From Chloroflexota bacterium (lineage in GTDB: Bacteria; Chloroflexota; UBA11872): a DNA stretch of 64,000 nt. Within the stretch, counting starts at the first letter, position 1, and every line of letters begins with the position of its first letter. The notes below the pieces were generated by a model. That model did no database searches. It had not been told where the DNA came from and saw only the letters and a program-made list of their open reading frames with translations. The stretch lies in contig JAJECS010000027.1 of assembly GCA_022821905.1 (NCBI GenBank), positions 248,001 to 312,000 on the forward strand, written 5' to 3'. Shown here in pieces: positions 4,882-64,000 of this stretch. A program made the translations under genes and the position numbers.

Positions 4882-5010
4882 GCCCTGCCGCCGGGCGTGT
4901 CTCTGGACCTACCGGTCTGGGCGGCGCCGGGTCAGCGGCTGTATGCGATGCCGTGGTGGGAATCATTTCTGCGAGCGATCAGTGCCAAGATCACCAGCCT
5001 CCGCGAATAG
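4882..5010 (+). pseudogene. Read-through extension of the ftsL-like gene
   Basis: These 42 codons plus TAG are in frame with the upstream ftsL-like gene across its amber codon. They have the GC-rich third positions of coding sequence and encode a plausible Trp-rich tail with PWWESFLRAI. No independent start with a ribosome site fits this piece, so it is best seen as the severed or suppressed C-terminus of the same gene. Its end overlaps the probable GTG 4982 start of ftsI, as expected for coupled neighbours. Confidence 0.6.
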
Positions 5011-6769: not shown

Positions 6770-6773
6770 GCTG

Positions 6774-10422: not shown

Positions 10423-10424
10423 GC

Positions 10425-12106: not shown

Positions 12107-12167
12107 GATAGCGGCAGCGGAATCTGATGAGTCGGCAGACATCCGGGGGGCACTGGAGGAGCAGACG

Positions 12168-13418: not shown

Positions 13419-13526
13419 CGAAATGTCCCACAGGCGCATTACTGTTGTGCATAATGAGTGGCCGAACGCGCGAGCTGACCGCATGACGTCCGCCAGCGCT
13501 GGACTCCGGCGACAGGGGACCAAGAC
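13419..13526 (+). promoter_or_regulatory. ftsA-ftsZ gap, possible ftsZ promoter
   Basis: A 108-base gap, the widest within the dcw operon after the mraZ leader. It contains a -10-like CATAAT at 13450-13455 in a locally AT-richer patch, but no convincing -35 box 17 bases upstream. Many bacteria place extra promoters before ftsZ, so an internal start is plausible but weakly supported. Confidence 0.3.
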
Positions 13527-30801: not shown

Positions 30802-31001
30802 CAGGCGACCTCCAGTCGACATGGGCCATAGGTATGGTCCCACGCTGCACGCCGCGCGGGCTACCGGGCATAAACCATGGTCGCGCCTGGCTCGGATGGC
30901 GATGGACGGTTTGAGCGTCGTGTCCAAGACTAGGGCTTGACTGGGTCAACGCCGCCAAAGTTGCCGTCGAATGAAGCACGTGCCGCCGAAACTGCCACAC
31001 C

Positions 31002-31021
31002 GGGCGGTTCGCGAACCGTCC
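31002..31021. repeat. Palindrome centred on TTCGCGAA
   Basis: GGGCGGTTCG and CGAACCGTCC arms with one G-T pair, 20 bases before the start of the SAF-domain gene. It resembles the diverged copy at 25925-25949, so it is a second dispersed palindrome family in this window. Confidence 0.65.
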
Positions 31022-31041
31022 CTACCTCGGATCCCGGCCCC

Positions 31042-32391
31042 ATGATGCGTCCATTGCTCGAGCGATTGGAGGCGCGCGGGTCGGCCGGCCGACCCGTGAC
31101 GGTGGCGCTGGCGGGCGCCGGTCGGTTTGGGACGAGCATCGCGGCGCAGATTGCGCAGATGGACGGTCTGCGACTGGCGGCGGTGGCCGATCCCAACGCC
31201 GAGAACGGCGCGGAGGCCCTGCGCGCGGCCGGCTGGGCGGACGAACAGTTGCGGCGCTGCGAGAGTGCGGTCGCCGCGCAGGCGGCCGTTGAATCAGGCG
31301 AAGCCGCACTTGCGCCCGACGCCGAGGCGTTGGCGTCCGCGCCCATCGAGGTGTTCGTGGACGCGACCGGCATCCCGGACGTGGCCGCCCGAAACGCCTG
31401 GGCGGCGTTGCACGCAGGCCGCCACGTCGTCATGGTCACGGTCGAGGCGGACATGAGCTGCGGCTGGGCCTTGGCGCGGGAGGCGCGTCGGCAGGGCGTC
31501 GTCTACACCCTCGCCGCCGGCGACCAGCCGATCGCCATCATGGAGCTGTTCGACTGGGCCGTCGCGCTGGGTCTGGACCCCGTGGCCGTGGGACGCGGCA
31601 CGCGCCTCTACCCGCACGACCGCCACGGAGACGCCGACAAGGCCCTGGCGCGGCTCGGCTACGACGCGGAGACGGCAGACCGTCTGCGCCTGAACGCGCA
31701 GATGTACAACTCGTTCCGCGACGGCACCAAGTCCCAGATCGAGATGTGCGCCGTGTCCAACATGACCGGTCTGCCGCCAGACCGTCGCGGCATGCACGAG
31801 CCGTCGGCCGGCTTGAACGAGCTGCCCAACCTGTTCGCGCCGCGCGACGCCGGCGGTCTGCTGCACGGGACGGGCGTGGTCGACCTGGCAAACGCCGTGG
31901 CGCCCGATGGCGCGTCCGAGATGCCGGAACACATCGCCACCGGCGTCTGGGCCGTGGTCACCTGCGACGACGATCGCGTGCTCGAGGACCTGCGCATCCA
32001 CGGCACGCGCGTCTCCCGCGACGGGCGGCGCACGCTGCTGTTCCGCGAGTACCACCTGTGCGGCGTGGAGACGCCGCTTAGCATCGCGCAGGCTGCGCTG
32101 CTGGGCGCGACGTCGGGTGCGCCGCGCGAGACGCCGACCTCCGAGGTTCTGGCATTCGCCAAGCGCGACCTGCGGCCGGGCGACACGCTGGACGGGTCCG
32201 GCGGGCGGCTGGTCTATGGCCTGATCGACCGGGCGGAAGCGGTGAGCGCCGACGGCGTGCTGCCGTTGGGGCTCACCTACGGGGCCGCCGTGCGCGAGCC
32301 GGTGGCCGCAGATCAGCCGATTCCCCTGGATGCCGTGAGCGTGGTCCAGGACTCATTCGTGGCACGGCTGCGCGAGGAGGCCGGCGCATAG
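31042..32391 (+). CDS. NAD(P)-dependent dehydrogenase with SAF domain
   Basis: A 449-residue protein with an N-terminal Rossmann fold (VALAGAGRFGTSIAAQIAQ) related to homoserine dehydrogenase and a C-terminal SAF-like domain (EVLAFAKRDLRPGDTLDGSGGRLVYGLI ... IPLDAV), as in sialic-acid synthase tails and UxaA-type proteins. YTLAAGDQPIAIMELFDWA and NSFRDGTKSQIEMCAVSN lie in the middle domain. It probably oxidises a sugar-acid-like substrate, but this family is not well characterised. The start is ATG 31042 or 31045. Its stop codon coincides with the breakpoint of the truncated array copy P1. Confidence 0.8.
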   Translation: MMRPLLERLEARGSAGRPVTVALAGAGRFGTSIAAQIAQMDGLRLAAVADPNAENGAEALRAAGWADEQLRRCESAVAAQAAVESGEAALAPDAEALASAPIEVFVDATGIPDVAARNAWAALHAGRHVVMVTVEADMSCGWALAREARRQGVVYTLAAGDQPIAIMELFDWAVALGLDPVAVGRGTRLYPHDRHGDADKALARLGYDAETADRLRLNAQMYNSFRDGTKSQIEMCAVSNMTGLPPDRRGMHEPSAGLNELPNLFAPRDAGGLLHGTGVVDLANAVAPDGASEMPEHIATGVWAVVTCDDDRVLEDLRIHGTRVSRDGRRTLLFREYHLCGVETPLSIAQAALLGATSGAPRETPTSEVLAFAKRDLRPGDTLDGSGGRLVYGLIDRAEAVSADGVLPLGLTYGAAVREPVAADQPIPLDAVSVVQDSFVARLREEAGA

Positions 32392-34766
32392 ACCGCGATG
32401 TCGTCGTTTCGCCAGATTCGACTCCACTTCCGAGTAGGCGTCATCGACGGCTCGACCGACGCCGGCAGGACCACCAGATCGGGCGACCGCTCGCCCAGCG
32501 GCTCCACCGTCCACGGTGCGGGCGCGTGCAGGTGCAGGGGCTGCGTGTCGACGGCGCCGGTCAGGCGCGTGTGGGACAGCGCCGAGGCGACTCGCAGCCC
32601 GTCCAGCCAGCCGAGCTCCGGGGCGAGATGCACGATCGCCGACGACGGTGCCGAGCGCAGCGCTTCGAATGACTCGGGATGCGGCTCGACGTCGAGCGTC
32701 AGGAACGCCTGCCTGACGCGGTAGAGCGCTTCGGCGCCATCTCGCGCCACGAGCTCGAACAGGTTCGGGTCCGCCAGCCGGCGTTGCGCCCGCGGCGGCA
32801 GCGCGGCTACCCAGGCGTCCGTCGCGTGGACGTACTCGATGCCCAGTCGTCGTATCGCGCCCGGCTCCAGCATGTGGACGGCATCGAGGTACTCGGGGCC
32901 GGTGAAATAGATCAGGTGGGACAGCTCGACAAATCCGGCGTGGCTGGGTCGGCCGGTAGCCAGGGACACGGCCCAATAGGGCCACTCGGGCGTCAACACG
33001 CGGGTGCGCAGCGGCGTGTGGTTGCGGATGTAGCTCGCCAGGCGGTGCGACATGGCCGGTAGTTGGAATCGCCGCGCTGGCGGCGCCGCCCATCCGGCGT
33101 TGGCCAACTGCACACCGCCTCCAACCGCTGCCGCCAGGCTGTGAATCGGGCCCGCGATAGTCGGCCAGAGGACCAGCCCCACGAGGAGTGCGGCGAGCGC
33201 GGGGCGCCAGCAAACTTGCGCCAAGGTGGCAGGGGAGAGGCTTGCGTGACGCAGGCGGAGAAGAGTTGTAAGGGGAGATCCGCGCAAGGTCTCAGGATTA
33301 CCGGGAGGTGGATTCCCGCCTTCGCGGGAATGACGGAGAGGCTTCGCGAAGGTCTGGGAGAGGTAGGCGGCGAGCGCGAGCAGCAGGGCCACCAGCGCGA
33401 GATTGCGGGCGTGTCCCGCCAGGCGGCTCACCACCCACGGCGCGGGCGAGTAGTTGAGAACCAGCCAGGCCATCACCAGCGCGGCGGCGCCCGCGGCCAG
33501 CGCCACCACCAGCCGATCTCGGCGAGCCAGGAGCACGGCGAGGCCCGCCACGACCACGGGGCCGACGCCCAGCACGCCGATACCGCCCGGACGCGCGTCG
33601 AACGTGCCGAACGCCTGCCAGCGCGTTCGATCGATGTCCCACGACAGTCCGAGGCCGTTGGATGGACCGCCGTCGAGGAGCACGGTGAAGGCCCCGCCGC
33701 CAAGGAGCATCAGGAGCACGGCCAGCCCGAGCCCCGCGCCCAGTCGCGGCACGCCGCCGCCGGGCCGCTCTCGCGCGACGCGGACGGCTGCCAGCACGGC
33801 CCACAAGACAAGCACCACAGGTGCGAGCGAGGTCACGAGAATGCCGAGGAAACCAACGACCGCCCCGAGCGTCAGCACGCCGTGCCATGTCGCGCGCTCA
33901 GATCGGACCGCGTGCTCCAGCACCACGAACGTGAGCGCGTATCCCAGGGTGAATGCCGGTGTCCAGATGTCGTGCAGCGCCGCCGATTCCGACGGCCACG
34001 ACGGCCCGAGCGATGGCCAGTAGATTTCGGCAAGCGATCCCTGGAAATCGGCCGCCGGGAGTCCGGCGGGCACGGGAAGCTGCAAGATGCCGCCGCCCAG
34101 GTTGGTCCAGGTCCAGGCGCCGGCGGTGAGCAGCAGCGGGGAAACGACCAGCGCGACTGGCCACGCCCCTCGCCCCAGCAGACCCGTCGCTACCACCAGG
34201 GCGAAGGCGGACCAGGCGTAGGCGCCGAGCAGCTCCTGCACGAACGCCAGGTCGGGCCCGATCGGCGGCGTGAGCAGGCCGACCAGCAAATCGACGCCGT
34301 GGTGGTAGCGCACGGGGCTGCCCGGATTCCAGGGCGCCTCGGGAGGAAATCCACCCGCCCGCATCCACGCGGCCAAGCCGAGGTGAAGCGTTGGGTCCGG
34401 GCTCTCGAGCAGCTGCCGGCTGGCGAGCGTCAGCCACAGCAGGGCGAGGACGGCAACGGCAAAGGCCGCCGCCACGCGTGGGCGAGGCCAAACGCAGTGG
34501 CGCGCGCGCCACGCAACGACCACACCCAGGACGAGCGTGACGCTCCAGCCCACGGCGGCGCCGGCCAATCCCGGCACGATGTAGAGCGCAAAGTTCGTGA
34601 TTAATCCCCAGAGCGCGGGGCCGACGACCAGGCCCTGCGCCAGGGCCGCCCGCTCATCGCCCTGCCGCAGGGCCACGCGGACGACGACATAGCCGACCGC
34701 GGCCAGCGCCGCGAGCTTCGCCGCCAGCAGCAGGAGCCCCGGCATGACGGCCGGATCAACGATCAT
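32313..34766 (-). CDS. Array copy P1: truncated GT-C-like membrane protein
   Basis: 817 residues. The N-terminal membrane half (D124, Y154-H155-H156) and middle region (YLDAVHMLEPGAIRRLGIEYVHATDAW, ALYRVRQAFL) match the other copies. The C-terminal beta-rich domain is missing: similarity ends at AVYAP near 32392, exactly where the convergent SAF-domain gene ends, and the last ~25 residues are antisense to that gene. After AGHARN, about 40 residues encoded around 33230-33360 are extra and include HSREGGNP from a dRS3-like repeat. Function may be altered or lost. Confidence 0.8.
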   Translation of the reverse strand: MIVDPAVMPGLLLLAAKLAALAAVGYVVVRVALRQGDERAALAQGLVVGPALWGLITNFALYIVPGLAGAAVGWSVTLVLGVVVAWRARHCVWPRPRVAAAFAVAVLALLWLTLASRQLLESPDPTLHLGLAAWMRAGGFPPEAPWNPGSPVRYHHGVDLLVGLLTPPIGPDLAFVQELLGAYAWSAFALVVATGLLGRGAWPVALVVSPLLLTAGAWTWTNLGGGILQLPVPAGLPAADFQGSLAEIYWPSLGPSWPSESAALHDIWTPAFTLGYALTFVVLEHAVRSERATWHGVLTLGAVVGFLGILVTSLAPVVLVLWAVLAAVRVARERPGGGVPRLGAGLGLAVLLMLLGGGAFTVLLDGGPSNGLGLSWDIDRTRWQAFGTFDARPGGIGVLGVGPVVVAGLAVLLARRDRLVVALAAGAAALVMAWLVLNYSPAPWVVSRLAGHARNLALVALLLALAAYLSQTFAKPLRHSREGGNPPPGNPETLRGSPLTTLLRLRHASLSPATLAQVCWRPALAALLVGLVLWPTIAGPIHSLAAAVGGGVQLANAGWAAPPARRFQLPAMSHRLASYIRNHTPLRTRVLTPEWPYWAVSLATGRPSHAGFVELSHLIYFTGPEYLDAVHMLEPGAIRRLGIEYVHATDAWVAALPPRAQRRLADPNLFELVARDGAEALYRVRQAFLTLDVEPHPESFEALRSAPSSAIVHLAPELGWLDGLRVASALSHTRLTGAVDTQPLHLHAPAPWTVEPLGERSPDLVVLPASVEPSMTPTRKWSRIWRNDDIAVYAPASSRSRATNESWTTLTASRGIG
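33310..33334. repeat. dRS3-like palindromic repeat inside array copy P1
   Basis: A full inverted-orientation copy (GGATTCCCGC ... GCGGGAATGAC) lies in frame within P1 and is translated as HSREGGNP. The other seven paralogues lack it at the matching place. Confidence 0.85.
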
Positions 34767-34776
34767 TCGCCCACTC

Positions 34777-34894
34777 TCACCCGATGCGTCGGAGCTTGTG
34801 GCCGGTTACATGGTGCGACGCGATGGCGGCGGGCGGGTCCGCCGCCTGAGCGCCGCTTCCGTCCCATTCGGCGCACTCGCAGCGACGCGGAACG
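34777..34894 (-). pseudogene. P1-P2 spacer: decayed oxidoreductase 3' end
   Basis: The reverse-strand translation ends ...SHHVTGHKLRRIG and then stops, which aligns with YQDVTDRKLGLID at the end of the Gfo/Idh/MocA gene at 55721. The upstream part is too decayed to align. Alone this match is weak; its position in the repeating unit supports it. Confidence 0.5.
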
Positions 34895-37735
34895 CTATGG
34901 CGGCGATTCGCCGCGGACGCTTTCGTGCACCGAGTACGTGATCTGGCCGTCGTCGGCGACGTCAATCCGCATCACTGGAATGAAGGCGGCCTCCCGCCAA
35001 GAGTTTGGCTGCCATTCGTGTTGCAGGCGGAGCGCCAAGACCCAGGCCCCTGTCCCCAAGCCGCCGTCCGATGCGTCGAGCGGCGCCAAGGTTCCGCGGT
35101 CGTTCCGCACGGCCAGAGTGGCCGCCGGCACGTCCAACTCGTACGAGTGGGTGCTGGCGTCCATGTTTGACGAGATTAGCCCGGCGAACCACTTGGCAAT
35201 CTTCGGCCCACGGCCGCCGGTGAGGAACTCCATTGGCATTTCCCAAGGCGACGCGTCGTCCACCGCGACCACGACCCAATCCTGGCCCGTCCATCGCTCC
35301 GGCGCCTGGTTGTCGAACGTGGCGGTAAAGGCTATGCGCCCCTCGTCAAGGTGGGCGTCGGAAATCTCGACTCTTACCGGCGACTCTTCGAGGGCTACCC
35401 GCGGCGGCGTCATCGGTGCAACCGTTCCATCGGGCGCGTAGACGGCAATCTCGGCGCTGTGCCAGATGGGCTGCCGGGCGCCGGGCGGAAACGCCCACGT
35501 CCACGGTTCAACCGCCGCTGGGAGGACGATCAGATTGGGCACGTCCGCGCCGGGCGGATCCACCGTCCAGGGCACGGGCGTACGCACGTGCAGCCGCAGC
35601 GTGTTGATGGCGCCCACGAGTTGGGCGTGAGGCAATACCGACGCGACGCGAAGCCGTTCCAGCCAGTTGGTTTGCGGGGCGAGGTAGACCGATGTCTCCG
35701 GCGGCACCGACCGCAGCGCCTCGAACGACTCGGGATGCGGCGCCACGTCGAGCTCGAGGAATTTCGGTTGAATGCGATAGAACGCCTCGTCGCGGTCGCG
35801 GAAGAGGAGTTCGAACAGGCTCGGGTCCGCCAGCCACTTCCGGGCCCGGTCCGGCAGAGAATCTACCCAGATATCGGTGGCGTGGACGTATTCGAGGCCC
35901 AAGCGCCGGATGGCGGCCGGCTCGAGATAGTGACGGGCGTCCCAATACTCCGGGCCGGGGTGATAGATCAGGTAGATCACGTCGGCAAAACCCGCATTGT
36001 TCGGGCGGCCGGTGCCGAGAAACACGTTCCAGTAAGGCCACTCGGTGGCGAGCACGCGGGCATCCACGGCGGTGTTGGCCCGGATGTAGTCCGCCACGGG
36101 TCCCGTCAACGCCCGCAGTTGAAACCGGCGCATGGGCACATCCACGCCCTGGTCTCGCAGCTCCGTTTGCACCCATCTGGCATTGCCGATCTGCACGCCA
36201 TTGCCGATCGCCAGCCCCAGACCGCGGGCGGGCGCCACGATCGTCGGCCACGTGATCAGAGCGACCAGCACGGCGCCGGTGGCGTAGCGCCAGCGTCCGG
36301 GCGGGAGGTCCGAAAGGCGCGAGCTCGCCGCGAGAAGCAGCGCCACGAGCGCCAGATTGCGGGCATGCCCCGCTATGCGATTGGTATCCCAGGGCGCCGG
36401 CGGATAGGTCAGCGCGAGCCAGAGGAGCACCAGCAAGCCGGCGCACGCCGCGAGCGTCACCACCAGCCGGTCGCGTCGCGCGAGCGCCACGGCCACGCCC
36501 GCAAGCGCCAGCGGCCCGACGCCCAGCAGGCCCACGCCGCCGGGACGCGCGTCGAACGAGCCCAGCACCCGCCAGTGTTGAGACTCCAGGCCCTGCGCCA
36601 GCGTCAAGCCAGCCGTTGGCGATCCATCCAGGAGTCCCGTGAAGGCGCCGCCGCCGCCGAGCAGCAGCAGACCACCCAGGATCGGACCGGCGCCCAGTCG
36701 GAGCGCCGCCTGCGCCGGCGGCTCGTTCCGCCGTGCTTGCAGGAAGTGCATCACCGCCAGCCCGGCCCAGGCGAGCAGCACCGCCGGCACGAGCGTGGTC
36801 GAAAGCAGACCCAGGAAGCCGACGAATGCCGCCAGCGCCAGCGACTCTCGCCACAACCAGCGCTGGCGGCTTGCCGCATGTTGGAGCACCACGAAAGCCA
36901 CGGCGTACCCCAGCGGGAATCCGGGCTTCCAGATGTCGGACAGCACTTGCGAAAACGTCGCGCTGGCGGACAGCTCGACGTGCGGCCAGTAGATATCGAT
37001 TAGCGAGGCTCGAAGGCCCGGCTCGGGCAGTCCTGCCGGCAGGGGCAGCTGCAGAACCCCAGCGCCGACGTCGCTAAAGGTCCAGAGTCCGCTGCTCAGC
37101 AGGAGCGGGGCTGTGACGATCACGCCGACCAGCGATGCCCGCTGCAGCAGTGCGGTGGTCACGATCAGGACGAGGGTCGTCCAGGCGTAGGCGCCCAGCA
37201 GCTCGGAGACGAACGCGAGGTCCGGCCCGAACGGGGGCGCGAGCAACCCGACGAGCAAGTCGGTCGCGTGGTGATAGCGGATGAGGGTGCCCGCGTTCCA
37301 GGGCAACTCCGGCGGAAAGCCGCCGGCTCGGAAGGTCGCAACCAGCCCGAGGTGGATGGGCGGGTCGGGGATCAGCATGAGCTGGCGACTGGCGAGCGCC
37401 GCCCAGGTGAGGGCCAGGACCGCCACGGCAAAGACCGCGACCACCCGCGGCCGCGGACGCATGGAGCGAGGCGCGCGCCATGCCAGGACCGCCCCCAGGG
37501 TAAGGGTGATCCCCCAGCCGACGGCCGCCCCCGCGAGCCCCGGAACCAGGTACAGCACGAAATTGGTGAACAGGCCCCAGAGGGCGAGCCCGACGACCAA
37601 GCCTTGGGCGAGAGCCACGCGCTCGTCGGCTTGCCGCAACACGACCCTCACGACGATGTAGCCCACCGCGGCCAGGGCGATTAGCTCCGCCGCCAGCAGC
37701 AGCAGACCCGGAATTACGGTCGGATCGAGGGTCAA
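34895..37735 (-). CDS. Array copy P2: GT-C-like polytopic membrane protein
   Basis: 946 residues from a TTG start at 37735 (LTLDPTVIPG), matching the MTLDSTVIPG start of P3. Candidate active residues D124 (LIPDPPIHLG) and Y154-H155-H156 are intact. Features in order: about a dozen helices to residue ~500, the soluble middle region with TGRPNNAGF and YLEPAAIRRLGLEYVHATD, then the C-terminal domain with WTGQDWVV, AKWFAGL and HEWQPN. P2 and P3 share long, nearly identical middle segments, including TELRDQGVDVPMRRFQLRA, so they are the closest pair in the array. Confidence 0.85.
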   Translation of the reverse strand: MTLDPTVIPGLLLLAAELIALAAVGYIVVRVVLRQADERVALAQGLVVGLALWGLFTNFVLYLVPGLAGAAVGWGITLTLGAVLAWRAPRSMRPRPRVVAVFAVAVLALTWAALASRQLMLIPDPPIHLGLVATFRAGGFPPELPWNAGTLIRYHHATDLLVGLLAPPFGPDLAFVSELLGAYAWTTLVLIVTTALLQRASLVGVIVTAPLLLSSGLWTFSDVGAGVLQLPLPAGLPEPGLRASLIDIYWPHVELSASATFSQVLSDIWKPGFPLGYAVAFVVLQHAASRQRWLWRESLALAAFVGFLGLLSTTLVPAVLLAWAGLAVMHFLQARRNEPPAQAALRLGAGPILGGLLLLGGGGAFTGLLDGSPTAGLTLAQGLESQHWRVLGSFDARPGGVGLLGVGPLALAGVAVALARRDRLVVTLAACAGLLVLLWLALTYPPAPWDTNRIAGHARNLALVALLLAASSRLSDLPPGRWRYATGAVLVALITWPTIVAPARGLGLAIGNGVQIGNARWVQTELRDQGVDVPMRRFQLRALTGPVADYIRANTAVDARVLATEWPYWNVFLGTGRPNNAGFADVIYLIYHPGPEYWDARHYLEPAAIRRLGLEYVHATDIWVDSLPDRARKWLADPSLFELLFRDRDEAFYRIQPKFLELDVAPHPESFEALRSVPPETSVYLAPQTNWLERLRVASVLPHAQLVGAINTLRLHVRTPVPWTVDPPGADVPNLIVLPAAVEPWTWAFPPGARQPIWHSAEIAVYAPDGTVAPMTPPRVALEESPVRVEISDAHLDEGRIAFTATFDNQAPERWTGQDWVVVAVDDASPWEMPMEFLTGGRGPKIAKWFAGLISSNMDASTHSYELDVPAATLAVRNDRGTLAPLDASDGGLGTGAWVLALRLQHEWQPNSWREAAFIPVMRIDVADDGQITYSVHESVRGESPP

Positions 37736-37829
37736 GCGCCAGACCTTCGCGGCGCATCCACCGGTTGCCGTCGAGCCTCGCGGACCCGAACGCAACTCTC
37801 TCGACGAGCCGACGGCTCACGTCGAAAGA

Positions 37830-37913
37830 GGCCGGTCGATTCGTCACGCGATTGCAGGCCGCGTGGACCTCTGTCGTCGATCTCAGGCATGGCGCCCATC
37901 TTGCCCGACCTGG
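37830..37913 (-). pseudogene. P2-P3 spacer: decayed oxidoreductase 3' end
   Basis: The reverse-strand translation GKMGAMPEIDDRGPRGLQSR aligns with QAGAMVTLDDVRSGRVSAYQ of the oxidoreductase. At DNA level GATTCGTCACG matches GATCCGTCACG near its 3' end. Stop codons and indels show it is not functional. Confidence 0.6.
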
Positions 37914-40778: not shown

Positions 40779-40859
40779 GCCCGAGACCCCCGCAGCGCAT
40801 CCAGCGGTTGCCGTCGAGCCTCGCAGACCCAGGCGCGACTCTCTCGACCAGCCGACGGC

Positions 40860-40956
40860 TCACGACGGCCGATACCGGTCGATTCCTCACGGGGTCGCAG
40901 GCCGCATGTATCGCTGTCGTCGATCCTTGGCATGGGTTCCATCTTGCCCGACGTGA
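40860..40956 (-). pseudogene. P3-P4 spacer: decayed oxidoreductase 3' end
   Basis: A close relative of the P2-P3 spacer (both contain a GGCATGG-N5-CCATCTTGCCCGAC-like block next to the stop of the preceding copy). It translates as GKMEPMPRIDDSDTCGLRP, aligning loosely with the GAM-x-x-LDD segment of the oxidoreductase. It is more decayed than the P6-P7 and P7-P8 spacers. Confidence 0.5.
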
Positions 40957-43827: not shown

Positions 43828-43862
43828 GGGCTCGGCCGGGCCCAGGACCGTGGGCGCTTCAC

Positions 43863-46718: not shown

Positions 46719-46734
46719 TCGCCCAGCCTCAGCA

Positions 46735-46838
46735 ACGCGGTCCAACCATTTCGCGCCTTACGCTTTGCCCAGCTCGGGCATTGTCACGCGGCAGCATGGC
46801 TCCAATCTTGCCGGAGTCACCCACGGCCGCCTGAAGGC
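46735..46838 (-). pseudogene. P5-P6 spacer: decayed oxidoreductase 3' end
   Basis: The reverse-strand translation SGKIGAMLPRDNARAGQSVR aligns with SQAGAMVTLDDVRSGRVSAY of the oxidoreductase C-terminus, with GAM and the R-x-G spacing kept. It ends at a stop before the P5 start. Confidence 0.6.
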
Positions 46839-49664
46839 CTACGGAAGTGCCCGCCCGAGCACGTCGTCAAATACTGCATACGAGACTTCGCCGGCCTCGG
46901 AGACCTGGAACCGCATCACCGGAATGAACGCCGCTTCGCGCCAAATGTTCGGTTGCCACTCATGTTGCAGCCTCAGGGCCAACATCCAGGAACCCGCGCC
47001 AACCTTGCCATCCGACGCCTCGAGCGGCACGAATGTTCCGCTCTCATTTCGAACCGCCAACGTGGATGTCGACGCGTCGAGTTGATAGGTGTGCATGGTC
47101 GCCGCCGACTCCGGCGAGATCAGCCCGGCGAACCACCGCGCCACCTTCGGTCCGCGGCCGCCGTCGAGAAATCGGTCGGGAATTGCCCAGGGTCCATCCG
47201 CCACCGGAATCACGACCCAGTCCTGGCCGGTCCACCGTTCCGGCGCGTGCTCGGTGAACGTCGCCTCGAAGGTCACGCGCCCTTGCTCAAGACTTGTCTG
47301 CGTCACCCGCACCGAGACTGGCAACGCCTCGGGTGCCGGACCCGGCGGCGTGATCGACGCGAATCCCCCATTGGGCGCATAGACGGCGACCCGCCCGTTC
47401 TGCCAGATGGGCTGCCGACCGGCGGCCGGGAACATCCGCGTCCACGGTTCGATGGACGCGGGAAGGACGACCAGGTCAGGCGTCTGCTCGTCCAGCGGTT
47501 CCACTGTCCACGGCGCGGGGGATCGCAAGTGCAGCCGCTGCACGTCCACATAGCCCAGCAGGCGGGCATGGCTGAGCACCGACGCGATGAGGAGCCGCTC
47601 ATTTTCCCCGACTTGCGGGGCCAAATGGACCACCGTCGACGGCGGCACGGCGCGTAAGGCCTCGAAAGTCTGCGGATGCGGCGCCACGTCAAGCTCAAGA
47701 AAGGCGGGCCGGATCCGGTAGAGGGCCTCCGCGCCGTCGCGAATGAGCAACTCAAATAGGCGCGGGTCCGCCAGCCAGCGCGCCGCCCGGTCGGGCAGAT
47801 CGGCTTCCCAGTCGTCTGTCGCGTAGACGTATTCGAGCCCCAGCCGTCGCACGGCGGCCGGTTCGAGAAAGTCCCGGACATCGAGGTACTCCGCGCCGAT
47901 GCCGTAATTGAGGTTGGTCGCGTTGGCAAATCCTGCGTTGTTTGGGCGGCCGGTGGCATAGAACACATGCTGGTCCCTGGCGGCGAATACACGGGCGTCC
48001 ACGGCCAGGTGGTCCCGGATATGGTCCGCCACGCGATCGGAGATGGCCGGCATTCCAAACCGTCGACCGGACGCCGGCTCGCCCCACCCCGGCAACCCGT
48101 CGTGCACCGAACCCTCATTGGCCAGCTGCACGCCATTCCCGATCGCGAGACCAAGAGTGCGCGCGGGTTCCACCACGGTCGGCCAGGTAATCAGAATCGC
48201 CACAAGGGCGGCGGCGTAGCGCCGACGGGCAGGCCGAAAGTCAGCCAGCCGAATGGCCAGCGCCAGTGCCAACGCCACCAGCGCGAGATTGCGGGCATGC
48301 CCGGCAAACCGGTTGATGTTCCACTGCAACGCGGGATAGTCCAGCGCCAGCCAGGCCACCGCCAACAGGACAGCGCCCGCCGCGAGCGCCACCACCAGCC
48401 GGTCGCGCCGCGCCAGCGCCACCGCCACGGCCGCGGCCGCCAGCGGCCCCACGCCCAGCACGCCCACGCCGCCGGGACGCGCGTCGAACAAGCCGAGCGC
48501 TTGCCACTGTGTCGCGCTGAGCCCATCCCTGAGGGTCAATCCGGATGCGGATTCCCCACTCAGAATTCCCGAAAATGCGCCGCCGGCGCCGACCAATAGC
48601 AGAACCGCCAGCGCGGGCCCCATGCCCGATCGCAGCGCCGCCACCACCGAGCCGGCTTCCCGATGTCGCATGAAATGCATCACGGCCAGGCCCGCCCACA
48701 CCAGCCCCACGCCCGAAGCGAGCGTGGGTGACAGCAGGCCCAGAAAGCCGACCAGTCCCGCCAGCGTCAGGCTGGCGCGCCACGACCAGCGCTCGAGCCG
48801 CGCGGCGCGCTCCAGCACGACGTACGCCAGGGCGTAGGCCAGCAGAAACGCGGGCTTCCAGATTTCGGGCAACACGTCGGAAAGACGCAGGGCTGGGGAC
48901 AGCTCGACCGTCGGCCAATAGACGTCGCCGAGCGATGCGCGCAGGCCCGCTTCCGGCAACCCCGCCGGCACCGGCAGCTGGACAGCCCCCGCATCCCAGC
49001 TGAGGAGCGTCCAGAGACCGTGGCTGATCAGCAGTGGGCCAAGCACGAGCGCGGCCATCCACGACCCCAGCCGCAGCAGCAACGTCACGACCACCAGGAC
49101 CATGGAGGTCCAGGCGTAGGCGCTTATCGACTCGTGCACCAGCGCCAGGTCCGGCCCGCTGGGTGGCGTCAACAGCCCGATCAGCAGGGCGGTGCCGTAG
49201 GGATATGGGGCTGGCGTCCCTGGAACCCAGGGCAGCTCCGGCGGAAACCCGCCCGCCCGGATCGAGGACGCCAGCCCCAGGACCATATACGGATCGGTGA
49301 CCGTTATCAGCTGTCGACTGGCGAGCGCCGCCCAAAAGAGCGCCAGGAACGCCGCGATGAACCCAGCGACGACGCGCGGCCGGAGCCGGATGGGACTTGT
49401 GGCGCGCCAGGCCAGGACCACACCCAGCGTGAGCAGAACGACCCAGCCGGCAATCGCCCCGGCACGCCCGTGGAAGACATACAGAAAAAAGGCGACGATC
49501 AATCCCCAGAGCGCGGGTCCGACGATCAGGCCCTGCGCCAGGGCCATGCGCTCATCCGCTTGGCGCAGCACCACCCGCACCACGACATAGCCGACAGCGG
49601 CGAGGGCGACAAGCTCGGCCACCAGCAGCAGCAGGCCCGGAAGGACCGCCGGATCAACGGTCAT
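46839..49664 (-). CDS. Array copy P6: GT-C-like protein with His155 replaced
   Basis: 941 residues, ATG start MTVDPAVLPG. D124 is present (TVTDPYMVLG), but the Y-H-H/Y motif conserved elsewhere reads PYPYG, so position 155 is Pro. P6 also lacks the His before LG at 128. The middle region keeps TGRPNNAGFANATNLNYG and FLEPAAVRRLGLEYVYATDDW. The C-terminal domain is of the HEWQPN type (WTGQDWVV, ARWFAGL). It may have a changed specificity or be inactive. Confidence 0.86.
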   Translation of the reverse strand: MTVDPAVLPGLLLLVAELVALAAVGYVVVRVVLRQADERMALAQGLIVGPALWGLIVAFFLYVFHGRAGAIAGWVVLLTLGVVLAWRATSPIRLRPRVVAGFIAAFLALFWAALASRQLITVTDPYMVLGLASSIRAGGFPPELPWVPGTPAPYPYGTALLIGLLTPPSGPDLALVHESISAYAWTSMVLVVVTLLLRLGSWMAALVLGPLLISHGLWTLLSWDAGAVQLPVPAGLPEAGLRASLGDVYWPTVELSPALRLSDVLPEIWKPAFLLAYALAYVVLERAARLERWSWRASLTLAGLVGFLGLLSPTLASGVGLVWAGLAVMHFMRHREAGSVVAALRSGMGPALAVLLLVGAGGAFSGILSGESASGLTLRDGLSATQWQALGLFDARPGGVGVLGVGPLAAAAVAVALARRDRLVVALAAGAVLLAVAWLALDYPALQWNINRFAGHARNLALVALALALAIRLADFRPARRRYAAALVAILITWPTVVEPARTLGLAIGNGVQLANEGSVHDGLPGWGEPASGRRFGMPAISDRVADHIRDHLAVDARVFAARDQHVFYATGRPNNAGFANATNLNYGIGAEYLDVRDFLEPAAVRRLGLEYVYATDDWEADLPDRAARWLADPRLFELLIRDGAEALYRIRPAFLELDVAPHPQTFEALRAVPPSTVVHLAPQVGENERLLIASVLSHARLLGYVDVQRLHLRSPAPWTVEPLDEQTPDLVVLPASIEPWTRMFPAAGRQPIWQNGRVAVYAPNGGFASITPPGPAPEALPVSVRVTQTSLEQGRVTFEATFTEHAPERWTGQDWVVIPVADGPWAIPDRFLDGGRGPKVARWFAGLISPESAATMHTYQLDASTSTLAVRNESGTFVPLEASDGKVGAGSWMLALRLQHEWQPNIWREAAFIPVMRFQVSEAGEVSYAVFDDVLGRALP

Positions 49665-49684
49665 TCGCCCGCCTACACCAAGGG

Positions 49685-49799
49685 ATCCCAGCCATACGGT
49701 CCGCTAGGTCGTAGTCGACGGCGACGCTGCCGTTGCGCACTTCGTCACGCGCGTGCATCGCGCCTGCATCGCTCGATTCGAGCATGGCGGCGCCGGAGT
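49685..49799 (-). pseudogene. P6-P7 spacer: oxidoreductase 3' end remnant
   Basis: A clear match: the translation AMLESSDAGAMHARDEVRNG aligns with LAVHESSQAGAMVTLDDVRS of the oxidoreductase and continues SVAVDYDLADRMAGI against RVSAYQDVTDRKLGLI. The junction with the P7 stop (GCCGGAGTCTATGGGAG) is nearly the same as at the P7-P8 spacer (GCCAGAGTCTAAGGGAG), so both derive from one original fusion point. Confidence 0.8.
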
Positions 49800-52652
49800 C
49801 TATGGGAGCAGCCTCTCGTCCAGCACGTCGCCAAGTATCTCGAATGAGGCCTCGCCGGTCTCGGTGACTCTGATCCGTAGCACCGGGATGACGGCGGCGT
49901 CCCGCCATTGGTTGGGCTGATACTCGTGTCGCAGGCGCAGCGCCAGCGTGTAGCCGCCCGGACCGAGGTCCGCCGCCGAGGTCGGCACCGGCACGAATGC
50001 GCCGGCATCGTTGCGGACCGACAAACCGGCATCCCCCGCATCGAACCGGTAGACATGCCTCACCGTCGCACTGCCTGCGGCCAGGAGCCCCCCAAACCAC
50101 TTGGCAATCGTCGGTTCGCCGCCACGGCGAAGGGCCGCTGCGGGAATGGCCCACGGCGATTGGTCGCCTTCCAGGATGACCCAATCCTGGCCCGTCCATC
50201 CCTCCGCAACGCGCTCGGCAAAGGAAGCGACGAATTCAATGATCCCGTCCTCCATCGTCACGTCGGTCACCTTCAACGACACCGGCGGGGGATCGCCCGA
50301 CGGCCCGGCATCCGGGATCGGTGGGTCAAAGATCCGCGGCACCGCGCCGTCAGGTGCGTAGATCGCAATGTCATCGCGCCGCCAGACCGGTGACCGCGCC
50401 GAGGGATGGAACATCCAGGGGATTGCGCTCGTCGGCAAAACGACCAGCTCGGGAGTCTCGTCGGTCAGGGAGTCGACGTGCCATTGCGCGGAACGTATGG
50501 CGTGGAGCAGCCGCGGATCGAGCTCACCCACGAGCCGGGCATGCGACAGGGTTGCCGCAACGCGGAGCGTGCTGGGTTCTACCGGCGGAACAACGAGATA
50601 GGCCGTTGCCGTCGGCGGAACCGCTTGCCGTAGGGCGGCAAATGACTCGGGCGTCGGCGGAACATCGAGACTTAGGAACGCCTGCCGCACCCGGAAGAGT
50701 CGCTCGTCGTCGTCCTGGACCAAGAGCTCGAATAATTCCGGGTCGGCCAGCCACGTCTGGGCCCGCTGGGGCAGGGCGGCTGCCCACGCATCCGTGGCAT
50801 GGACATATTCAACGTCCAGCCGCTGGATGGCAGCCGGTTCGAGATAGTTGATCGCATCCAGGAACTCCGGACCGGGGAAGTAGTTCAAGTGGGTGAAATC
50901 GGCAATGCCCGCGTTGTTCGGGCGGCCGGTGGCAAAGAGCACCTGCCAGTGGGACGGCTTCGGAGCCAGAACGCGCGCATCCACGGAGGTGTGGTTCCGG
51001 ATGTAGTCCGCCACGCGTGCGGACATCGACGGCAGCCGATAGCGGCGCAGCGGAATATCCACGCCCTGATCGATCAGCTCCTCCCGCACCCAAGTGGCGT
51101 TGGCCAGTTGGACGCCGTGGCTGATGGCCAGGCCGAGACTTCGGACCGGCGCCACGACGGTGGGCCAGGTGATGAGAATCGCGACAAGCCCGGCGGCGTA
51201 GCGCTGGCGGGTGGCCCGGAGGTCTCCGAGACGCGATGTCATCGCGAGCAGCAGCGCCACCAGCGCCAGATTGCGCGCATGCCCCGCCAGCCGATTCAGG
51301 TCCCAGGGCGCCGGCGGGTAGTTCAGCGCCAGCCAGGCGAGCGCGAACAGGCCGGCTCCCGCCGCCAGCGCCAGCACCAGGCGGTCACGTCGCGCCAGCA
51401 CCGCCGCAAGTCCGGCAACGGCCAACGGTCCGAGGCCCAGGAGGCCCGCGCCTCCGGGCCGTGGATCGACGGTGCCGAGCACCTGCCAGCTACCAGGTTC
51501 GAAGCTTCGCGCCAGCTCCAGTCCGGACGGCGGCGCGCCGTCCAGGATTCCCGTGAACGCGCCGCCGCCAACCAGAATCAGCAGCCCCGCCAGTGCCAGG
51601 CCGGCGCCACCCCGCAAGGCCTCGCCGCGCATGGAGCCGGAACGCCGGGCTCGCAGGACGTGCCATCCGGCCAGACCGGCCCACACCACAACCACCACCG
51701 GCACGAGGGAGGTCATGAGCAGGCCCAAGAACCCGACCAGTCCCGCCAGCGTCAACGACGCGCTCCACGACCAGCGCTCCGACCTCGCCGCGTACTCCAG
51801 CACCACGAACGTCAGGGCATATGCCAGCGTGTACGCGGGAACTTCAATATCGGCCAACAGATCGGTAAGCCGCACATTTGGCGACAGCTCAACCAACGGC
51901 CAATAGATGTCACCGAGCGACGCGCGCAGGCCCGCCTCCGGCAGCCCCACCGGAATTGGTCCGTGCAAGATCGCGCCTTCCGCCGGGGTCGTCCACGTCC
52001 AAAGCCCGTTGGCGAGCAGCAGCGGGGCGGCCACGAGCACGGCAATGGGAGACGCGCGCCGCAGCAGCGCCGTGATCACGATCAGCGCAAAGCTCGTCCA
52101 GGCAAAGGCGCTCAGCAGTTCGGTGACCAGCGCCAGGTCCGGCCCCGACGGCGGCGCCAGCAGTCCGATCAGCACGTCAGGACCGTAGTGAAATCGCACT
52201 GGGATCCCCGGGCTCCACGCGAGTTCCGGGGGGAACCCGCCCGCCCGGATCCAGGCCGCCAGTCCCAGACGCAGCTCGGGATGTGAGATGCCCATGAGCT
52301 GTCGGCTGGCCAGCGCGGCCAACATGAGCGCCAGCACGGCGACGGCGAATCCCGCGGCCACGCCCGGCCGCGGGCGGATGTGGTCAGGAGCGCGCCAGGC
52401 CAGGACTGCGCCAACGGTGAGCACGACGCCCCAACCCACGGCCGCCCCCGCGAGTCCGGGAACGACGTAAAGAATGAAGTTGACGATCACGCCCCAAAGG
52501 GCGGGGCCAACCGCCAGCCCCTGCGCCAAGGCCATGCGCTCGTCGTCCTGGCGCAGCGCCACGCGAACCACGACGTAGCCCACCGCGGCCAGCGCGGCCA
52601 GCTCCAGCGCCAAGAGCAGCAGGCCGGGGACGACCGCCGGATCAACGGTCAC
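49800..52652 (-). CDS. Array copy P7: GT-C-like protein with Asp124 replaced
   Basis: 950 residues from GTG 52652 (MTVDPAVVPG), with a GGAG site upstream. The otherwise conserved D124 is His (GISHPELRLG), and the next motif is F154-H155-Y156. Its middle region (EELIDQGVDIPLRRYRLPS) resembles P2 and P3, but its C-terminal domain is of the HEYQPN type of P5 and P8. P7 is therefore a mosaic. WTGQDWVI and AKWFGGLL are present. Confidence 0.87.
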   Translation of the reverse strand: MTVDPAVVPGLLLLALELAALAAVGYVVVRVALRQDDERMALAQGLAVGPALWGVIVNFILYVVPGLAGAAVGWGVVLTVGAVLAWRAPDHIRPRPGVAAGFAVAVLALMLAALASRQLMGISHPELRLGLAAWIRAGGFPPELAWSPGIPVRFHYGPDVLIGLLAPPSGPDLALVTELLSAFAWTSFALIVITALLRRASPIAVLVAAPLLLANGLWTWTTPAEGAILHGPIPVGLPEAGLRASLGDIYWPLVELSPNVRLTDLLADIEVPAYTLAYALTFVVLEYAARSERWSWSASLTLAGLVGFLGLLMTSLVPVVVVVWAGLAGWHVLRARRSGSMRGEALRGGAGLALAGLLILVGGGAFTGILDGAPPSGLELARSFEPGSWQVLGTVDPRPGGAGLLGLGPLAVAGLAAVLARRDRLVLALAAGAGLFALAWLALNYPPAPWDLNRLAGHARNLALVALLLAMTSRLGDLRATRQRYAAGLVAILITWPTVVAPVRSLGLAISHGVQLANATWVREELIDQGVDIPLRRYRLPSMSARVADYIRNHTSVDARVLAPKPSHWQVLFATGRPNNAGIADFTHLNYFPGPEFLDAINYLEPAAIQRLDVEYVHATDAWAAALPQRAQTWLADPELFELLVQDDDERLFRVRQAFLSLDVPPTPESFAALRQAVPPTATAYLVVPPVEPSTLRVAATLSHARLVGELDPRLLHAIRSAQWHVDSLTDETPELVVLPTSAIPWMFHPSARSPVWRRDDIAIYAPDGAVPRIFDPPIPDAGPSGDPPPVSLKVTDVTMEDGIIEFVASFAERVAEGWTGQDWVILEGDQSPWAIPAAALRRGGEPTIAKWFGGLLAAGSATVRHVYRFDAGDAGLSVRNDAGAFVPVPTSAADLGPGGYTLALRLRHEYQPNQWRDAAVIPVLRIRVTETGEASFEILGDVLDERLLP

Positions 52653-52687
52653 TTAGGCAAGCTCCGCATGACGGCCAACGCTTTGCG

Positions 52688-52821
52688 TCACGGGCTCATA
52701 TCGAAAGGGCCGAGCGTTCGATCCGTCACATCCTGGCAGGTGCTGGTCGGGCCGCTGCACACGTCGTCACACGTGAGCAGCGCGCCCGCGGCGCTCAACT
52801 CGAGTACGGCGACGCCAGAGT
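52688..52821 (-). pseudogene. P7-P8 spacer: oxidoreductase 3' end remnant
   Basis: The best-preserved fossil. The translation VAVLELSAAGALLTCDDVCS aligns with LVLAVHESSQAGAMVTLDDV and continues to CQDVTDRTLGPFD against YQDVTDRKLGLID. The DNA is alignable over ~110 bases with the oxidoreductase between about 55735 and 55845. It lacks the rest of the gene, so it cannot encode an enzyme. Confidence 0.85.
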
Positions 52822-55677
52822 CTAAGGGAGCGGGCTCCCGCGCAGCACATCGTCGAACACCTCGAACGAAACCTCGCCAGTCTCGGCGACCCTGATCCGC
52901 ACCACCGGAATCACGGCGGCGTCGCGCCAATAGTTTGGCTGGTATTCATGTCGCAAGCGAAGCGCCAGGGTGTAACCGCCCGGGCCAAGGTCTGCCGCCG
53001 ACGTCGGCAGCGGCACGAAGGCGCCGGCGTCGTTGCGCACCGACAGTTCGGCCGTCCGTACGTCAAACCGGTACGTGTGGGTCGAAGTCGCCCCACCCGG
53101 CGAGAGCAGACCCCCAAACCATTTGGCGTTCGTCGGCTCGTCGCCCCGGCGGAAGACCTCGGTCGGAATTGCCCACGGTGATCGGTCACCCTTGATGACC
53201 ACCCAATCCTGCCCCGTCCACCCTTGCGAGTCGCGCTCCTCGAAGGCCGCGACAAACTCGATGCGGCCGTCCGCCACGGTCACCTCGGTCACCTCCAGCA
53301 GCACGGGCGGCGAAACGCCGGGCACCGGGCCATCTGGCGGCGCACCGTCCATGATCCGCGGCATCGCGCCGTCCGGCGCGTACACCCCGACGCCCTCTCG
53401 CCACCAGATCGGCGTCCGCGCCGAAGACTCAAACATCCAGGGATCCGCGTTGGTCGGCAAAACGACGAGGTCCGGAGTCTCGTCGGTCAACGGATCGACC
53501 TGCCACCTCGCGGGCGGTACCAGGTGGAGTTGCTGTGGGTCCATCTGGCCGATCAGTCGGGCGTGCGACAGCGCCGATGCAACACGGACCATCTGGACAC
53601 GGGTGTGCGGGAATACCAGATACACCGTGGCCGACGGCGGCACGGCCTGCCGGAGCGCCTCGAATGAGGCGGGATCGGGCGGCGCGTCGAGGCTCAGAAA
53701 CGCCTGCCGCACCCGGTAGAGCCGCTCGCGGTCGTCGCTCGCCAATAGCTCGAACAATCGCGGATCGCCCAGCCAACCCTGCGCCCGCGTCGGCAGCTCG
53801 GCTATCCACGCGTCCGTGGCATGGACGTATTCGATGCCAAGCGCCCGAAGCGCCGCCGGCTCGAGATAGTGCACGGCGTCCAGATATTCCGCGCCAATCA
53901 AGTAGTTCAGGTGCGTCAGGCCGGCAAACCCGGCGTTGTTGGGACGACCGGTGGCGAAGAACACGTTCCAATAGCGCCCTTCGGCGCCAAGCACGCGCGC
54001 ATCCAACGCCACGTGGTCCCGGATATAGGCCGCCAGATCTTCGGAGACGAGCGGGATCTGAAACCGCCGCCTGGGCACCGTCTCGCCCCGGTCAGGCAAC
54101 TCCTCGCTCACCCATCCGGCATTCGCCAGTTCGACCCCGCGCCCGATCGCCAGGCCGAGATTCCGTGCCGGGACGACGACCGTGGGCCATGTAATGAGGA
54201 TCGCCACCAGCGCCGCCGCAATGTGCCGGCGGTGGGGTCGGAGATCGTGCAGGCGGGCCGTGAGCGCCAGCAGCACCGCCGCCAACGCCAGGTTGCGTGC
54301 ATGCCCGGCGAAACGATTCACGTCCCACGGGGCCGGCGGATACGTCAACACCATCCAGGCGAGCGCCAGCACGACGGCGCCCGCCGCCAACGCCAGCACC
54401 AGCCGGTCGCGCCGCGCCAGCACCACGGCCACGCCGGCGACGGCCAGTGGCCCGACACCCAGCAGGCCCACGCCGCCGGGCCGCGCGGCAAATGTGCCGA
54501 GCGCCTGCCAGAGTTCCTCGTGAAGGCTTGGCGCCAACTCGAAACCGGACGACGGCGCACCGCTGAGGACCCTCGCAAACGCGCCGCCGCCGCCGAGGAT
54601 CAGCGCCACCGCCAGCGCCAGCCCCGTGCCGGCTCGGAGCGCTTCGTTCCTGGCCGAGCCGGATCTCCTGGCTCGCATGACCTGCCAGCCGGACAGGGCG
54701 GCCCACAGGACCCCGGCCACTGGAACGAGCGTGGGTGAGACCAAGCTCAGGAAGCCGACCAATCCCGCCAGCGTGATCGCGGCAGGCCATGCCGCGCGTT
54801 CGGAGCGAGCGGCGCGCTCCAGCACCACAAACGTCAGCGCATAGCCCAGCGGGAAGTGTGGTTTCCAGATATCCGGCAGCAGATCCGTGAGCGGCGGCAT
54901 CGGGTTCGCTGACAGCGCAACCGACGGCCAGTAGACGTCGCCGAGCGATGCGCGCAAGCCCGCCTCTGGCAGGCCGGCCGGAACGGGCAGCAGGAACACT
55001 GCCGCTGAAACGTTGGAAAAGGTCCAAAGACCGGCGCTGAGCAGGAGCGGGGCGGCGACGAGCACGCTGACGAGCGATGCCCGCTGTAGCAACGCCGTCG
55101 TCACGATCAGGATGAGGCTCGCCCAGCAATAGGCGCCGAAAATCTCCGTCACAAACGCCGGATCGGGTCCCACCGGCGGCGTCAAGAGCCCGACGAGGAG
55201 GGAAACGCCATGGTGGTAGGGCGAGGGCGTCCCTGGGCTCCAAAACAGCTCGGGCGGATACGCGCCCTCGCGGAGCGAGACCGCCAACCCCAACTGCGTT
55301 TGCGGATCCGGGATCCAAAGGAGTTGACGGCTGGCAAGTCCAGCCCACAGGAGCGCCACGACAACCACCGCAAATCCCGCGGCCACGCGCGGGCGCGGCC
55401 CAATGGGATTCGGTGCGCGCCATATCAGGATTCCGCCCAGTGCGAGCGTGAGGCCCCAGCCGACCGCCGCGCCCGCCATTCCTGGGACGGCGTACAGCAC
55501 GAAATTGACGATCAGGCCCCAGATCGCGGGGCCGACCACCAGGCCCTGCGCCAACGCTGCGCGGTCGTCGTCCTGGCGCAGCGCCACCCGCACGACGACA
55601 TAACCGACGGCGGCGAGCGTCGCGAGTTCCGCCACCAGCAGCAGCAGGCCCGGAAGGACCGCCGGATCAACGGTCAT
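52822..55677 (-). CDS. Array copy P8: GT-C-like polytopic membrane protein
   Basis: 951 residues, ATG 55677 with GGAGG eight bases upstream; probably the first array gene to be transcribed, 43 bases after the oxidoreductase. Order of features: helices from residue 8; D124 (WIPDPQTQLG); loop PPELFWSPG 141-149; Y154-H155-H156; further helices to ~500; NRFAGHARN 454-462; variable segment ~520-545; TGRPNNAGF 576-584; YLEPAALRALGIEYVHATDAW 604-624; LYRVRQAFL 653-661; VYAPDG 765-770; C-terminal domain with GWTGQDWVV 819-827, AKWF 851-854 and HEYQPN 910-915. The FPPE-PW-G-YHH loop and late ALYRV element resemble DUF2298/YYY-type GT-C transferases; the activity is not proven. Confidence 0.87.
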   Translation of the reverse strand: MTVDPAVLPGLLLLVAELATLAAVGYVVVRVALRQDDDRAALAQGLVVGPAIWGLIVNFVLYAVPGMAGAAVGWGLTLALGGILIWRAPNPIGPRPRVAAGFAVVVVALLWAGLASRQLLWIPDPQTQLGLAVSLREGAYPPELFWSPGTPSPYHHGVSLLVGLLTPPVGPDPAFVTEIFGAYCWASLILIVTTALLQRASLVSVLVAAPLLLSAGLWTFSNVSAAVFLLPVPAGLPEAGLRASLGDVYWPSVALSANPMPPLTDLLPDIWKPHFPLGYALTFVVLERAARSERAAWPAAITLAGLVGFLSLVSPTLVPVAGVLWAALSGWQVMRARRSGSARNEALRAGTGLALAVALILGGGGAFARVLSGAPSSGFELAPSLHEELWQALGTFAARPGGVGLLGVGPLAVAGVAVVLARRDRLVLALAAGAVVLALAWMVLTYPPAPWDVNRFAGHARNLALAAVLLALTARLHDLRPHRRHIAAALVAILITWPTVVVPARNLGLAIGRGVELANAGWVSEELPDRGETVPRRRFQIPLVSEDLAAYIRDHVALDARVLGAEGRYWNVFFATGRPNNAGFAGLTHLNYLIGAEYLDAVHYLEPAALRALGIEYVHATDAWIAELPTRAQGWLGDPRLFELLASDDRERLYRVRQAFLSLDAPPDPASFEALRQAVPPSATVYLVFPHTRVQMVRVASALSHARLIGQMDPQQLHLVPPARWQVDPLTDETPDLVVLPTNADPWMFESSARTPIWWREGVGVYAPDGAMPRIMDGAPPDGPVPGVSPPVLLEVTEVTVADGRIEFVAAFEERDSQGWTGQDWVVIKGDRSPWAIPTEVFRRGDEPTNAKWFGGLLSPGGATSTHTYRFDVRTAELSVRNDAGAFVPLPTSAADLGPGGYTLALRLRHEYQPNYWRDAAVIPVVRIRVAETGEVSFEVFDDVLRGSPLP

Positions 55678-61229: not shown

Positions 61230-64000
<2,771 letters not shown>

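Follow-up and report, generated by a model that had tools for sequence, protein, structure and literature searches.

The window analysed here, i.e. a stretch of 64,000 nucleotides from the genome of a Chloroflexota bacterium (contig JAJECS010000027.1, positions 248,001 to 312,000), carries on its reverse strand eight open reading frames (ORFs) for large membrane proteins, all in direct orientation, which together fill the interval 32313-55677. A sequence-only reading of the same DNA had described this interval as an eight-copy direct tandem array with a period of ~3.0 kb, and the ORFs, the repeat spacing (2.89-3.06 kb for the repeat families represented in all eight copies) and the alignment agree with that description. 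The copies are numbered from P1 (32313) to P8 (52822) and lie, together with the two oxidoreductase genes that border them, as follows:

32313-34766, reverse strand: P1, short form and last gene of the array, delimited by ORF and alignment; a short copy occupies the same end in five related species
34895-37795, reverse strand: P2, array member; homology starts ~20 codons into the ORF
37914-40778, reverse strand: P3, array member; of the eight the best match to TIGR03662 (E 1e-5, below the cut-off)
40957-43827, reverse strand: P4, array member, delimited by ORF and alignment
43863-46745, reverse strand: P5, array member; homology starts ~10 codons into the ORF
46839-49664, reverse strand: P6, array member, delimited by ORF and alignment; no reciprocal best match in five related arrays
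49800-52652, reverse strand: P7, array member; His in place of the candidate catalytic Asp
52822-55677, reverse strand: P8, first gene of the array; adjoins the intact Gfo/Idh/MocA gene
55721-56977, reverse strand: Gfo/Idh/MocA-family oxidoreductase; source of the gene-end scars described below and upstream anchor of the locus in five related genomes
30937-32391, forward strand: DRL-type oxidoreductase with a weak SAF match; convergent with P1 and anchor of the other end in four related genomes

Transcription proceeds from P8 to P1 (from 55677 towards 32313), so that the short copy comes last in the array. In the alignment the seven copies P2-P8 (941-966 residues) match from end to end and P1 (817 residues) matches everywhere except in the C-terminal domain; 186 columns are invariant across all eight copies, and P2 and P3 are in places more similar to each other (85-87% DNA identity over 300 nt). 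None of the eight frames contains an internal stop. As the copies are 55-67% identical to P8, the array did not arise by recent amplification, nor is it a collapsed repeat. Misassembly of repeats might be suspected because the window genome is a 2.95-Mb draft in 31 contigs and the relatives used are drafts as well, with the exception of the single-contig genome G006; it is nevertheless extremely unlikely, since the copies are too diverged to be collapsed or mis-joined and since arrays were assembled at the equivalent locus in five related drafts.

At E <= 1e-20 the genome of the window (G000) has ten matches to the family, namely the eight of the array, one copy on contig C15 (48% identical to P8) and one on C7 (47%). 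Family members occur in all six genomes of the genus, and in 20 of the 24 genomes searched in the order there are 3-18 matches each at the same threshold; the 17 class genomes outside the order gave two weak matches (7e-14 and 8e-11), 15 of them having no match at E <= 1e-10. In the five other species of the genus (genomes G001-G005) the arrays at the equivalent locus hold 4, 7, 12, 9 and 7 members, respectively, counted as frames of at least 350 residues; gaps of ~1.8 kb in the arrays of G001 and G003 may hold broken copies. All five start beside Gfo/Idh/MocA and GSDH-type genes (89.7-94% identity) with an SDR gene beyond (~97%), and MlrC comes next after these upstream flank genes wherever the stretch extends far enough. 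The DRL gene (86-92% identity) stands at the other end in four of the relatives, the stretch of G001 ending inside P1; both flanks are conserved in four related genomes and the Gfo/Idh/MocA flank in five.

The membership of the array differs between species. Seven of the eight window copies cluster with copies of other species in a quick tree of 112 rows, the exceptions, which cluster by genome, being the copies of G006, those of G020 and six of G003. Reciprocal best matches in the five related arrays were found for P1 and P2 in all five species, for P3, P4, P5 and P7 in two, for P8 in one and for P6 in none. The copies at the far end (P1 and P2) are common to all six species, and most of those nearer to Gfo/Idh/MocA are common to few. 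Two distant relatives (1014 residues, and a partial one of 823) adjoin at a contig end elsewhere in the window genome (L047:3758-9408) and form a single long outlying branch in the tree.

The spacers between the copies hold remains of the neighbouring gene. Spacers of at least 30 nt (n = 44, six genomes) were translated in the three coding-strand frames and each was scored against 200 composition shuffles. Ten of the 44 outscore all 200 shuffles as matches to a decayed 3' end of the Gfo/Idh/MocA gene, and none of the 44 does so for any of the ends of seven control genes; three further spacers (that of P2 in the window, one in G004 and one in G005) lie near the threshold (1-2 of 200 shuffles). 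The scars of the window, whose 24-38 matched residues all fall inside the last 40 of the Gfo/Idh/MocA protein, are:

46746-46838, reverse strand: scar in the spacer upstream of P5; 24 residues within the last 40; score 46, 0 of 200 shuffles
49665-49799, reverse strand: scar in the spacer upstream of P6; 35 residues, ~112 nt; score 77, 0 of 200 shuffles
52653-52821, reverse strand: scar in the spacer upstream of P7; 38 residues, ~126 nt, reaching the last Gfo/Idh/MocA residue; score 99, 0 of 200 shuffles

The eight strong scars of G000, G004 and G005 are confined to the three spacers closest to the intact Gfo/Idh/MocA gene (eight of nine near spacers, none of twelve farther ones), counts that are non-independent owing to shared descent. 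The simplest reading of these spacer translations would be repeated tandem duplication of a unit that comprised the Gfo/Idh/MocA end and one membrane-protein gene, followed by decay of the gene end. Since five spacers (67-88 nt) between six species-specific copies of G003 are without a clear scar, ordinary unequal exchange probably acts too.

Segments also appear to be exchanged between copies. Two copies of G004 share an exact tract of 675 nt and two copies on contig C23 of G002 one of 351 nt; for comparison, five orthologous pairs share exact tracts of at most 145 nt. The two long tracts suggest local gene conversion or recent partial duplication, draft assembly error being a further possibility. 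The ratio of nonsynonymous to synonymous substitution (dN/dS), obtained by a Nei-Gojobori count, is 0.23-0.35 in all 17 comparisons of array orthologues, 0.17-0.26 in four comparisons of the single copies on C15 and C7, and 0.03-0.19 in seven comparisons of flanking genes. The array is under purifying selection, looser than that on its flanks, and its copies all have open frames. A neutral duplication relic, in which no variety is selected and copies remain through slow loss alone, would agree with this difference from the flanks and with the scars and exact tracts, which show that mutation alone creates and reshapes copies; ratios far below 1 in every ortholog comparison, eight open frames and the presence of family members throughout the genus leave it little credence.

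The sequence-only reading had supposed selection for dosage or variety. The evidence leans to variety, because the copies diverge to the extent given above, differ at the candidate catalytic residue (see below) and turn over between species; the exact tracts in two relatives weigh against it. Under the dosage explanation extra copies would supply more of one activity. The genes could be co-transcribed, as they stand in direct tandem and a scan of 32000-51900, weak for such GC-rich DNA, found no consensus promoter (promoter and terminator scans of this interval were both uninformative); moreover, the exact tracts described above (675 and 351 nt) have a homogenising effect on parts of the sequence, and the copies of G006, of G020 and six of G003 cluster by genome. 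Dosage is nevertheless very unlikely, given the divergence of the copies, the clustering of seven of them with those of other species, and the differences that the short form and P7 show at sites of likely function.

Of the earlier description as seven full copies and one truncated copy, the former part holds, whereas P1 is no random truncation: the array copy at the DRL end is without the C-terminal domain in all six species of the genus (the match ends at 776-780 of 944 profile positions). We read P1, on this comparison of sequences, as a stable, conserved short form. Among G000, G004 and G005 the short copies have a dN/dS of 0.26-0.35, and SRATNES occurs in the short-copy tail of four of the six species, G005 stopping earlier and the G001 stretch ending inside the copy; the short copy of G005 has one TGA in frame near its end. 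In the window P1 and the convergent DRL gene share 79 nt at their 3' ends. P1 also contains an in-frame insert (33207-33359, reverse strand), which holds a dispersed repeat of the CGTCATTCCCGCGAAGGCGGGAATCCA type, in a loop between two modelled helices. Inserts in the equivalent P1 loop are present in G001 and G003 and absent from G002, G004 and G005; the repeat, which is palindromic (CGTCATTCCCGCGAAGGCGGGAATCCA and close variants), has six occurrences in the window, i.e. at 33207-33359 and near 2391, 18495, 19428, 27188 and 59544.

As to the identity of the family, the Pfam and NCBIfam scans gave nothing above a curated cut-off for the eight copies and a few scattered, weak hits for 50 members, and a collinear match to DUF2298 emerged from the comparison of profiles: hhalign aligned positions 18-658 of a 110-row family profile with 38-754 of a 10-row DUF2298 profile (probability 90%, E 1.4e-6, the latter being the value for one single comparison). 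Control profiles, both shallower, were weaker (PMT_2, E 8e-4, outside the N-terminus; TIGR03663, E 0.24). Direct links to PMT_2 or TIGR03663 were discarded as unconvincing, and the assignment to the glycosyltransferases of fold class C (GT-C) therefore has three supports, namely the fold, the layout of the loop and the link to DUF2298. The gathering score of DUF2298 (PF10060; 27.8 bits) is not reached in the window scan, where P1 scores 16.3 bits and no match is listed for the other seven copies; in genome searches with DUF2298 the best window copy scores 23.7 bits, a member on contig C19 of G020 passes the cut-off with 29.8 bits, and several members match below it in the matching N-terminal register. 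TIGR03662 is matched by six of 50 members (best E 1e-5), the best window score (24.4 bits, P3) falling short of its cut-off of 300.25 bits. The motif NYYY, which we take to be the basis of the family name Chlor_Arch_YYY, is absent; Y-H-[HY] stands in its place, with H at position 155 in 106 of 108 sequences.

Judged by these profile relationships, the array proteins make up a family that is a divergent sister of DUF2298/Chlor_Arch_YYY. Homology to DUF2298/TIGR03662 is collinear across the membrane part and the soluble domain after it, and the first loop has the same layout: an acidic residue, PP..PW and an aromatic motif, which reads YH[HY]G in the array family and NYYYFG or NYYYLG in DUF2298/TIGR03662. 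The array proteins differ in that they fall below the curated cut-offs, are without the YYY motif, carry an extra C-terminal domain of ~170 residues and form tandem arrays. A canonical DUF2298 gene is present elsewhere in the window genome (C7:50563), near a TIGR03663 gene (C7:52728). In several genomes DUF2298 and PMT_2 match within open frames of equal length (~1450-1650 residues; G001:C75:66057-69299 and equivalents), possibly a double GT-C fusion protein to judge by the frames. Literature searches on TIGR03662 and TIGR03663 found nothing, and in the portions of the literature covered (including part of PMC8756737) no tested function of DUF2298 was found.

Profile searching of the PDB gave nothing useful, and a first structure model from the eight copies alone was poor (predicted local distance difference test, pLDDT, of 45). 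A better model from 13 rows (mean pLDDT 60, predicted template modelling score 0.53) has five PDB matches at E <= 0.001, namely AftA twice, oligosaccharyltransferase-complex chains twice and DPY19, with template modelling (TM) scores of 0.15-0.24 by query length. Residue 124 in the first loop (D124 of P8) is D in 98, E in 4, H in 3 and N in 2 of 107 aligned copies, and is acidic in seven of the eight window copies; the loop also carries PP..PW and YH[HY]G. An acidic residue in the first extracytoplasmic loop is a feature of GT-C glycosyltransferases, and D124 is accordingly a candidate catalytic residue. A separate domain, rich in beta structure, makes up the last ~170 residues; 12 of its positions are invariant in 25 sequences, three of them being Trp, and by analogy this domain recalls the carbohydrate-binding modules (CBMs) of Emb-type GT-Cs, so that it may bind sugar. 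The family most likely consists, as far as the model indicates, of GT-C-type glycosyltransferases, with catalysis and substrate as proposed below.

The locus is well supported at the level of genome biology, and its enzymology we infer. On the whole we think it probable that the array comprises eight divergent GT-C-type surface glycosyltransferases and grew by tandem duplication beside Gfo/Idh/MocA; most likely it would serve as a birth-and-death repertoire of enzymes that depend on lipid-linked sugars. Each protein would take a sugar from a polyprenyl-phosphate carrier at the outer face of the membrane by means of the first-loop acidic residue (D124 of P8) and pass it on to a glycan or glycoprotein of the cell surface; the acceptor would be bound by the beta-rich C-terminal domain, a role that has been proposed for the CBMs of EmbC and GT136, and different copies might make different linkages or use different acceptors. 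Growth would have occurred, at least partly, by tandem duplication of the last ~40 Gfo/Idh/MocA codons together with one membrane-protein gene, the partial gene end remaining between copies as a decaying scar; old copies would persist at the far end while those near Gfo/Idh/MocA are gained and lost, and segments would occasionally be copied between paralogues.

The closest known systems agree with this proposal in part. AftA is the best structural match to the model, at a low TM-score. The mycobacterial Emb arabinosyltransferases (EmbC, EmbA and EmbB) are encoded by three genes, against eight in the array; no Emb chain appeared at E <= 10 in a 71-row profile search of the PDB or among the best 50 of 152 fold matches. 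For the array proteins a lipid-linked donor is suggested by analogy. The C-terminal CBM of EmbC has been proposed to hold the acceptor (PMC3044687). The GT136 ribofuranosyltransferase ORF12 is a GT-C with a C-terminal CBM that stays active in a CBM-less form and works together with a MATE flippase and a synthase of its donor (PMC11127046). The active CBM-less form parallels the short copy P1 and fits its stability; the partners of GT136, in contrast, have no recognised counterpart beside the array. The TTT solute-binding proteins of Rhodoplanes, described in PMC5994714 as a lineage-specific gene-family expansion, likewise represent a single family multiplied in a single lineage, albeit another family on another scale. 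The sequence-only reading knew of no described system with this layout, and neither did our searches of the literature on sponge and Chloroflexi symbionts, GT-C enzymes and tandem arrays find a description of an eight-copy array in the portions covered (including part of PMC6306507).

Several observations weigh against the proposed glycosyltransferase array. The ten best fold matches have TM-scores of 0.13-0.24 by query length with root-mean-square deviations of 17-25 Å, and unrelated transporters appear from rank 11 (E 0.06); the 71-row PDB search returned no GT-C and a single match, at E 1.9. No window copy exceeds a Pfam or NCBIfam cut-off, and a Pfam scan of 50 members found no family better than E 0.0075. 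The acidic loop residue is missing in P7 and four other copies among the 107; the C-terminal domain is modelled mostly below pLDDT 50, with beta strands visible and no family match; and the scan of 30 flanking ORFs, some of which have no family, yielded no recognisable synthase of lipid-linked sugars and no recognisable flippase. With respect to growth, polarity is imperfect in that two copies that are not shared separate P4 from P5 in G005, scar score and distance correlate by rank without reaching significance on their own (p 0.05, 0.18 and 0.21), G001 and G003 have one clear scar each, at the far end, and none of the nine G002 spacers has one.

Part of this evidence could be accommodated by a GT-C-like fold without glycosyltransferase activity, in which case the proteins would handle lipid-linked sugars as flippases, receptors or scaffolds and the array would supply variety in binding instead of catalysis. 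The His at the candidate site is kept in P7 and its G004 orthologue, with a dN/dS of 0.24 between them, and the DUF2298 literature covered offers no tested function; residue 124 is acidic, however, in 102 of the 107 copies, and every one of the five fold matches at E <= 0.001 is a glycosyltransferase or a chain of a glycosyltransferase complex, so that we regard this explanation as rather unlikely. An extension of the glycosyltransferase proposal, which we likewise put forward as a doubtful possibility, is a polarised, self-renewing repertoire at a fixed site, in which the unit would be re-duplicated beside the anchor gene, copy order would be a record of age, and gene conversion and loss of the catalytic residue would give new surface glycans (for escape from phages or predators, or for matching to a host).

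Elsewhere in the window, 4556-14678 holds a division and cell-wall cluster (PBP, FtsW/RodA, GT28, Mur ligase, MurB, FtsA and FtsZ), from which it follows that the organism probably makes peptidoglycan, and 61230-63938, near the window end, encodes a protein like the R subunit of type I restriction enzymes. In the single-contig relative G006, which has just four matches to the array family, six PMT_2 matches lie on one strand, 2.7-5.7 kb apart (G006:C1:2978265-2996772), perhaps another GT-C array.

The array is real, lineage-specific and remodelled, and the family that it encodes is new and GT-C-like. With as many as 18 matches per genome in one order, this family is an uncharacterised sister to DUF2298 and probably also to the GT-C glycosyltransferases. 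With the arrays of six species at one locus and the fossil gene ends between copies, the birth, ordering and pruning of an array of very large genes can be read; and if it is true that the copies differ in substrate, the locus would be a natural series on how specificity changes in such enzymes.

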